Shown here: positions 54,829 through 56,563 of the stretch, piece after piece | Layout of the letters: each line of letters begins with the position of its first letter | Position numbering within the stretch: the stretch's first letter is position 1 | Assembly: GCF_037031225.1 (NCBI RefSeq) | Contig: NZ_JAYEZN010000001.1 | Location: 2,728,001-2,792,000, forward strand | From: Halorientalis sp. LT38 | GTDB taxonomy: Archaea > Halobacteriota > Halobacteria > Halobacteriales > Haloarculaceae | Reading direction: 5' to 3' | Length of the DNA: 64,000 bases | Notes under the pieces: model-generated | Told to the model about the DNA's origin: nothing | What the model saw: the letters and a program-made list of their open reading frames with translations, nothing else | Database searches by the model: none | Position numbers and translations under genes: made by a program

Positions 54829-55401
54829 ATGGCCCAGGATCGGGCGACGGTGCTCGTGGTCGACGACGAGACGGAGGTCGCCGACGTGTACGCGCTGAAA
54901 CTCGAACGCGAGTACGACGTCCGCACCGCCTACGGAGGCCGCGAGGCCCTCGAAACGGTCGACGAGGACGTCGACATCGTCCTGCTCGATCGCCGGATGC
55001 CCGAAGTCTCGGGCGACGAGGTCCTCGAGACGATCCGCGACCGGGGACTCGACTGTCGCGTCGTCATGATCACGGCGGTCGACCCCGACTTCGACATCAT
55101 CGCGATGCCCTTCGACGACTACCTCTGTAAACCGGTCCAGAGCGACGACCTGCTCGAGGCGATCGAGCAACAGCTCGCCGCCAGCGACCTCGACGAGCGC
55201 CTCACCGAGTTCTACGAGGTCACGGCCAAACTGGCCCTGCTCGAAGCCGAGAAGACCCCGCGGGAGCTCGACGGGCACGAGGAGGTCGCCGCGCTCCGGG
55301 AGCGCGCCGCCGAACTGGAGGCCGAGATGGACGCATCGCTCGAGGACTTCGCCGACTTCGAGATGGCCTTTCGCGAGATCGGTCGACAGCCCGGTCGGTG
55401 A
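54829..55401 (+). CDS. HalX-type response regulator
   Basis: A 190-residue two-part protein. Residues 1-125 are a receiver domain: acidic residues in VVDDETEV, the phosphoacceptor Asp in VLLDRRMPEVSGDE (about residue 53), the conserved Thr in MITAV and the Lys in LCKPV. Residues 126-190 are the haloarchaeal HalX helical output domain (LDERLTEFYEVTAKLALLEAEKT ... REIGRQ), with no DNA-binding domain. Such regulators are haloarchaeal specialities whose output is unknown. No histidine kinase is adjacent. The ATG is preceded by GATATAACC about 30 nt upstream. Confidence 0.88.
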   Translation: MAQDRATVLVVDDETEVADVYALKLEREYDVRTAYGGREALETVDEDVDIVLLDRRMPEVSGDEVLETIRDRGLDCRVVMITAVDPDFDIIAMPFDDYLCKPVQSDDLLEAIEQQLAASDLDERLTEFYEVTAKLALLEAEKTPRELDGHEEVAALRERAAELEAEMDASLEDFADFEMAFREIGRQPGR

Positions 55402-55410
55402 TCGTCGGTC

Positions 55411-55556
55411 ACAGAAGAAGCCGGGATGCCGCCTGAGGAACGGCATCGCGGCAAGCTGGCACGTGGTGCTTGCGGGACGGCTGGTAAGGGGACGTGGGCG
55501 CGTCCCCCGCCGGTGAGAATCGGAAGCGATGAACCACCCACCCACCGGCGAGACAT
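55411..55556 (+). ncRNA. Candidate structured RNA with four stem-loops
   Basis: Four stem-loops are packed in 130 nt with no credible frame. Stem 1: GATGCCG/CGGCATC (55425-55447), extended by GCCG/CGGC. Stem 2: GCAAGC/GCTTGC (55451-55473). Stem 3: GGGGACG/CGTCCCC (55488-55507). Stem 4: GCCGGTG/CACCGGC (55509-55549) with inner ATCG/CGAT, followed three bases later by ACA (55553-55555), as in box H/ACA guide RNAs. A palindromic TTAAATTTAA (55576-55585) could end the transcript. A mobile-element end RNA (TnpB-type) is an alternative, but no transposase gene is next to it. Confidence 0.5.
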
Positions 55557-55626
55557 TATATCAAGCGATACTGGATTAAATTTAACCCGGTGATACTCGG
55601 TGGTTTAAATGGTGGTTGGTTTCGAC

Positions 55627-56034
55627 TCAGGCCTCGACGTCGCGCCGGCAGACGAGGACGGACCGGTCTGCGTCGAGCAGGACGCTCTGGGTGACGCTCC
55701 CGAACAGGACCTTCCCCGTGGGGGAGCGCTTGCGCCCGCCGATGCAGATCAGGTCCGCGTCCATCTCGGCGGCGGCTTCGAGGATGGCGTCGGCCGGTTC
55801 GCCGGATTGCTCGTCGAGGGTCACCTCGTAGCCGGCGTCCTCGAGGCGCGACTCGACGCGCCGGGCCGACTGCAACTGTGTGATCGACGCGCCCGACGGG
55901 TTCTCGGTGAAGGAGTGCAGGACCGTCACCGCGACCTCGTCGGGCCCGCCCGGCAGGTCCTCGATGGCTCGTGCCTGCCGCAGTGCGCGGTCGGCGTCGG
56001 TGTCGATCGGCATCAGTATCTCGTACATACCCAT
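55627..56034 (-). CDS. Universal stress protein (UspA family)
   Basis: A 135-residue USP domain starting MGMYEILMPIDTDADRALRQA. The C-terminal loop GGRKRSPTGKVLFGSVTQSVLLDADRSVLV is the USP nucleotide-binding pattern with the G-x-x-G lost in part (GGRKRSPTGK), so ATP binding is uncertain. The palindromic TGTTAAATAACA at 56052-56063 is centred 24 nt before ATG 56034, a likely leaderless TATA box, supporting this start over ATG 56028. Confidence 0.88.
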   Translation of the reverse strand: MGMYEILMPIDTDADRALRQARAIEDLPGGPDEVAVTVLHSFTENPSGASITQLQSARRVESRLEDAGYEVTLDEQSGEPADAILEAAAEMDADLICIGGRKRSPTGKVLFGSVTQSVLLDADRSVLVCRRDVEA

Positions 56035-56197: not shown

Positions 56198-56563
56198 ATG
56201 GACGACGAACCGGTGGAGATCTGGTGTGCCGGCGAACAGTGGTGTGCCGTGACGGCGACGGCCGCGTTGATCGGCAAGAAGTGGCATCCGGTGATCGTCG
56301 ACCGGCTGTTACAGGAGGGCGCCCGGGGATTCAACGCCCTGCAGGACGCGGTCGACGGGGTGTCGAGCAAGGTGCTCTCGGACAGTCTGGACGACCTCGA
56401 GGACCGCGGGATCGTCACGCGAACCGTCGTCAGCGAGAAACCGTTTCGCGTCGAGTACGCGCTGACCGAGCGCGGCACCGATCTGGCGCCGGTCATCGAC
56501 GCGATGCGCGAGTGGGGTCGGGATCACCTCGTCCCCGCGCCGGACGAGGGCTCTCCGGCCTGA
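56198..56563 (+). CDS. HxlR-family winged-helix regulator
   Basis: A 121-residue HxlR-type MarR-like regulator. An early CAGEQWCAVTATAALIGKKWHPVIVDRLLQ block is the family hallmark; the two Cys (WC-AGEQWC) could sense redox or bind a metal. The recognition region is FNALQDAVDGVSSKVLSDSLDDLEDRGIV, with the wing at KPFRVEYALTERG. HxlR proteins bind DNA as dimers and often respond to aldehydes or redox stress. It is leaderless with palindromes upstream. Its stop adjoins that of the convergent gene. Confidence 0.9.
   Translation: MDDEPVEIWCAGEQWCAVTATAALIGKKWHPVIVDRLLQEGARGFNALQDAVDGVSSKVLSDSLDDLEDRGIVTRTVVSEKPFRVEYALTERGTDLAPVIDAMREWGRDHLVPAPDEGSPA

Follow-up and report, generated by a model that had tools for sequence, protein, structure and literature searches.

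Our analysis of a stretch of 64,000 nucleotides (the window) characterizes a structured, non-coding element in the 225-bp gap between the stop codons of a HalX response regulator gene (55401, plus strand) and a universal stress protein gene, uspA (55627, minus strand). We consider it likely that this element of the genus Halorientalis is a stand-alone gene for a small non-coding RNA, encoded on the minus strand, equipped with its own promoter and acting by base-pairing in trans. We propose the following model for its function. An archaeal promoter would drive the synthesis of an RNA of ~140 nt that ends at its 3' hairpin (~165–170 nt if the upstream TTTAAA is the TATA box). Three hairpins, SL1, SL2 and SL3, would stabilize the RNA and would expose the nearly invariant SL1 loop and a 27-nt invariant linker for pairing with mRNAs in trans. 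Through such pairing, a small regulon would come under its control, in the manner of sRNA132 and other intergenic sRNAs of haloarchaea. The features of the locus are collected in Table 1.

Table 1. Features of the RNA and its surroundings, in window coordinates
Feature	Position	Strand	Evidence or remark
Small non-coding RNA, conserved part of ~137 nt	55413..55549	-	Eight Halorientalis homologues at 110–174 bits (covariance model) and covariation
Promoter-like block, TTAAA-N3-CC-N8-CCGGG-N2-AAATTT	55578..55608	-	0 mismatches in 7 genomes
SL1, 5' hairpin GCCGGUGGG...CUCACCGGC, loop nearly invariant	55509..55549	-	Mean identity 0.94; 100% of cells paired in the outer helix
SL2, hairpin GGGGGACG/CGUCCCC	55487..55508	-	Compensatory change between species, A-U to G-C
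Linker with the invariant 27-mer GCCGUCCCGCAAGCACCACGUGCCAGC	55453..55486	-	Same in all sequences
SL3, 3' hairpin	55420..55452	-	Five of the six two-sided pairs; individual folds
Pyrimidine-rich tail UUCUUCU, possible terminator	55413..55419	-	Sequence only; weakly conserved
HalX response regulator, convergent neighbour, outside the RNA	54829..55401	+	Pfam PF00072 and PF08663
Universal stress protein (uspA), upstream neighbour, outside the RNA	55627..56034	-	Pfam PF00582
HxlR-type regulator, next after uspA	56198..56563	+	

The RNA is restricted to the genus Halorientalis and was previously uncatalogued. When 58 related genomes were searched at the nucleotide level, it was recovered in six of seven congeners, at 84–94% identity, and in no other genus. 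An exact search with an 18-mer from the linker found Halorientalis regularis, H. persicus, H. salina, H. marina, H. pallida and Halorientalis sp. LUM.68; the remaining matches, in bacteria such as Streptomyces and Rhizobium, are presumably due to chance. Together with the source genome and one further genome (G003), these six make up the eight homologues, which score 110–174 bits against a covariance model; seven of the eight had also served to build it. The model found no convincing homologue elsewhere, whether in the family (138 further genomes) or in a sample of the rest of the order (392 genomes in all), and plasmid collections, phage collections and viral contigs held no match to the RNA. 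Searches of Rfam at gathering and relaxed thresholds gave nothing above noise, the top hit being PyrR204 (E = 5.4), and a full-text literature search for Halorientalis and sRNA found no paper. The initial annotation had envisaged a functional structured RNA, perhaps an unclassified haloarchaeal one, and this idea is borne out by the eight Halorientalis genomes, their compensatory changes and the lack of an Rfam match.

Weak covariance matches outside the genus (E between 0.001 and 0.1) appear, where inspected, to stem from coding sequence, from GC-rich hairpins or from a multi-copy element. One (L030, genome G154) apparently lies inside coding sequence, another (L053) resembles just a GC-rich hairpin pair, and two (L052 and L054) are copies of a multi-copy element of another family. 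That element, a structured non-coding sequence of ~180 nt with strong hairpins (L052, 1440–1630; L054, 1353–1482, minus strand), occurs in 26 of 79 genomes of another haloarchaeal family in at most 10 copies each, several of them at contig ends, and is probably a MITE or an insertion-sequence end. The Halorientalis RNA is single-copy in its own genome, occurs once per genome among the homologues and, where its neighbours were inspected, keeps to one locus. Single copy and fixed locus exclude a MITE or the end of an insertion sequence, an origin against which the initial annotation had advised checking.

The same annotation had singled out four perfect stems between the two genes. All four are present, with lengths of 6–8 bp (8 bp at 55508/55550, 7 bp at 55488/55507, 7 bp at 55425/55447 and 6 bp at 55451/55473). 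Four stems of this kind within 149 nt are found in 0.7% of dinucleotide shuffles of the sequence, with P = 0.001 for summed stem length. Since the same stem count is reached by 22 of 426 tiles of the GC-rich window, the stems by themselves are weak evidence. Three of the four, in SL1, SL2 and SL3, are kept among the relatives; the fourth, GCAAGC/GCTTGC, is disrupted in H. salina and H. marina and lies outside the conserved fold.

Sequence and structure are conserved across the eight homologues. The RNA is much better conserved than its flanks: mean identity is 0.94 in SL1, 0.92 in the linker, 0.85 in SL2 and 0.75 in SL3, compared with 0.5–0.6 in the flanks (0.58 at the 3' end of uspA and 0.52 on the HalX side). 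Pairing holds in 96.6% of cells of the refitted alignment. Changes on both sides are seen at six pairs, against 1.2±0.9 in shuffles and at most two with slid partners; five belong to SL3 and one to SL2, and the covariation comes mostly from SL3 of two divergent species. The SL2 pair is A-U in four species, G-C in three and G-U in one, and variation in the SL1 outer helix is confined to G-C/G-U. Compensatory changes, which the initial annotation had suggested looking for in related genomes, were thus found. Individual folds retain SL3 in H. salina and H. marina despite its re-made sequence. A hairpin that is re-made yet preserved, followed by a pyrimidine tail, behaves as would a terminator or 3' stabilizer; the tail itself is possibly a terminator, and at best a weak one. 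Single-base indels between species interrupt any reading frame within the RNA, which argues against a conserved one.

How might the RNA act? Given the class of sRNAs to which it would belong, it probably base-pairs in trans through the SL1 loop and the linker. Within the linker, a tiny GCAC-CAC-GUGC hairpin may form; its invariance means that covariation says nothing about its pairing. Searches with sequences complementary to the SL1 loop (GGAAGCGATGAAC) and to the linker (GTGGTGCTTGCGGGACGG) gave scattered matches in the eight genomes, with no convincing conserved match at a start site among those inspected, which fall inside coding regions. Linker complement matches were fewer than those of a reversed control, and predicted duplexes with the start regions of neighbouring genes were no better than shuffled ones. 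A one-mismatch linker match in one genome (G001) was rejected as lying within a UspA-like coding gene. The length of the invariant stretches makes protein binding a serious rival: at 23–27 nt they exceed a typical pairing seed, and in a scaffold or decoy RNA that binds or sequesters a protein, the SL1 loop and linker would be the protein contacts, a reading with which the outcome of the complement search also agrees. However, invariance would also suit pairing with several mRNAs, and the RNA has neither a known protein-binding motif nor an Rfam family. We regard protein binding as conceivable but rather unlikely.

The stand-alone sRNA that we favour is probably encoded on the minus strand, opposite to the strand first proposed. 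Folding energy cannot settle the strand, because the two are about equal in the RNAalifold structure conservation index (0.92 for minus and 0.94 for plus); the folding z-scores of the 137-nt element are -3.0 and -2.8, respectively. The assignment is based instead on the promoter-like block, the orientation of the neighbouring genes and the 3' hairpin. At the level of sequence, the fixed spacing of the block and the convergence of the downstream genes would fit a monocistronic gene with a putative promoter of its own. Spacing within the block is identical in seven genomes, and in H. pallida one extra A is found in the AT run. Identity falls to 0.41 in the 24 nt immediately upstream of SL1 and rises to 0.74 in the block 24–60 nt upstream. 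Block, short variable spacer and RNA together look like the arrangement expected of a promoter-driven RNA. Either of two AT boxes could be the TATA box, the near one (TTAAATTTAA) predicting a start ~5 nt before SL1, at ~55554, and the far one (TTTAAA) a start ~30 nt before it, at ~55580. An AT palindrome, TTAAATTTAA (55576–55585), had been noted in the initial annotation as a 3' feature; the palindrome is real, but most of it falls inside the AT-rich promoter-like block, ahead of where the RNA would begin.

What is the nature of this block? Near-matches across the genus are mostly upstream of protein genes, several of which have long structured leaders, and the block is therefore probably of a core-promoter type, not the site of a dedicated regulator. 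The combination of TATA and CCGGG may represent the core-promoter style of the genus, as opposed to a private operator of the RNA. Three of the loci (L088, 1501–1780; L090, 1501–1780; L085, 1501–1761) contain protein genes with signal-like N-termini and strongly folded 5' leaders of ~230 nt, preceded by a block, ATAAA-N3-CC-N8-CCGGG-N-AAA, similar to that of the RNA; the genes at L085 and L088 lie downstream of ribosomal protein genes. In H. regularis, GGGAACGAGAGACGGCCCGCAGGTAGTGGGGCCTG is common to two paralogous leaders. A similar short 5' leader and the same promoter arrangement, TTTAAA...CGGG, recur in a set of orthologues (MSTQEQQFELDDYFPTTAWL...) from three Halorientalis genomes (L087, L089 and L091, about 1500–1640).

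Comparison of the locus between species separates the RNA from its neighbours. In all genomes examined, the gene downstream runs convergently to the RNA; it encodes HalX in the majority and an RND-type transporter in H. salina. In H. marina, the locus lacks UspA but still has the RNA and its upstream block. In the latter species, tandem HalX response regulators lie beside the RNA (L007, 1693–2238 and 2362–2910), 50% and 75% identical to that of the source genome. Because the downstream gene is convergent and exchangeable and the RNA persists without UspA, we conclude that it is not a leader, a riboswitch or a part of the HalX mRNA; the genomes examined have no co-directional gene directly downstream that a riboswitch or 5' leader would serve. 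A ninth congener (G006), in which the HalX and UspA stops are 7 bp apart, has neither RNA nor promoter block, which indicates that the two were gained or lost as one unit. The locus thus offers an example of an RNA gene gained or lost as a cassette inside one genus, and the ninth congener a natural relative without the RNA for comparison.

These observations also bear on two readings in which the RNA belongs to an adjacent transcript. It could be a processed uspA 3' UTR, a 3'UTR-derived sRNA as opposed to an independent gene, as it begins ~75 nt past the uspA stop codon on the same strand. We find this improbable: the promoter-like block sits between uspA and the RNA, H. marina has the RNA without uspA at the locus, and the ninth congener has uspA without the RNA. 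A structured 3' UTR on the plus strand, or an antisense control element of HalX, would be in keeping with the near-equal folding of the plus strand and with convergent transcripts that could overlap. We judge it very improbable, as H. salina carries the same RNA next to a different downstream gene, identity drops on the HalX side and the promoter-like block is at the opposite side.

Two further proposals concern what the RNA does. Its 5' end bears an invariant G-rich run, GGUGGGUGGGUGG, and it is just conceivable, although we would give the idea little credence, that a two-tier G-quadruplex competes with SL1 and, in the molar-potassium cytoplasm of a haloarchaeon, makes the RNA a potassium or osmotic switch that would in turn expose or conceal the invariant linker; the evidence for this is the invariance of the G run. 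A resemblance of GUGCCAGC to the 530 loop of 16S rRNA is presumably due to chance. The initial annotation's suggestion of a box H/ACA pseudouridylation guide is extremely unlikely and can be set aside: archaeal guides of this kind are hairpin RNAs of similar size, and an ACA does follow near the last plus-strand stem, but these letters are found in the source genome only, the relatives lacking them, they lie on the wrong strand, Rfam yields no H/ACA match above threshold, and no K-turn was noticed by eye.

Few haloarchaeal sRNAs have been characterized in detail, and those in the literature that we found are from Haloferax. With the RNA described here, another genus gains its own candidate sRNA, with a testable structure, a promoter-like block and an invariant putative pairing segment. 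Two archaeal sRNAs provide points of comparison. sRNA154 of Methanosarcina mazei, linked to nitrogen starvation with nif and glnA targets, has two loops, and these exposed loops are proposed to pair with mRNAs (PMC5867862). Both RNAs are structured and conserved within a genus, but the Halorientalis RNA consists of three hairpins and a linker in place of two loops and shows no nitrogen link. sRNA132 of Haloferax volcanii is an intergenic, genus-restricted RNA with one conserved locus and its own BRE/TATA elements, which is expressed under low phosphate and controls a phosphate regulon (PMC6560208). The Halorientalis RNA differs from it in genus and neighbours. In features read from sequence, the two are alike: both are short, intergenic, genus-restricted and conserved in locus and secondary structure, the Halorientalis RNA, like sRNA132, probably shares no operon with its neighbours, and the basal promoter elements of sRNA132 have a putative counterpart here in the promoter-like block.
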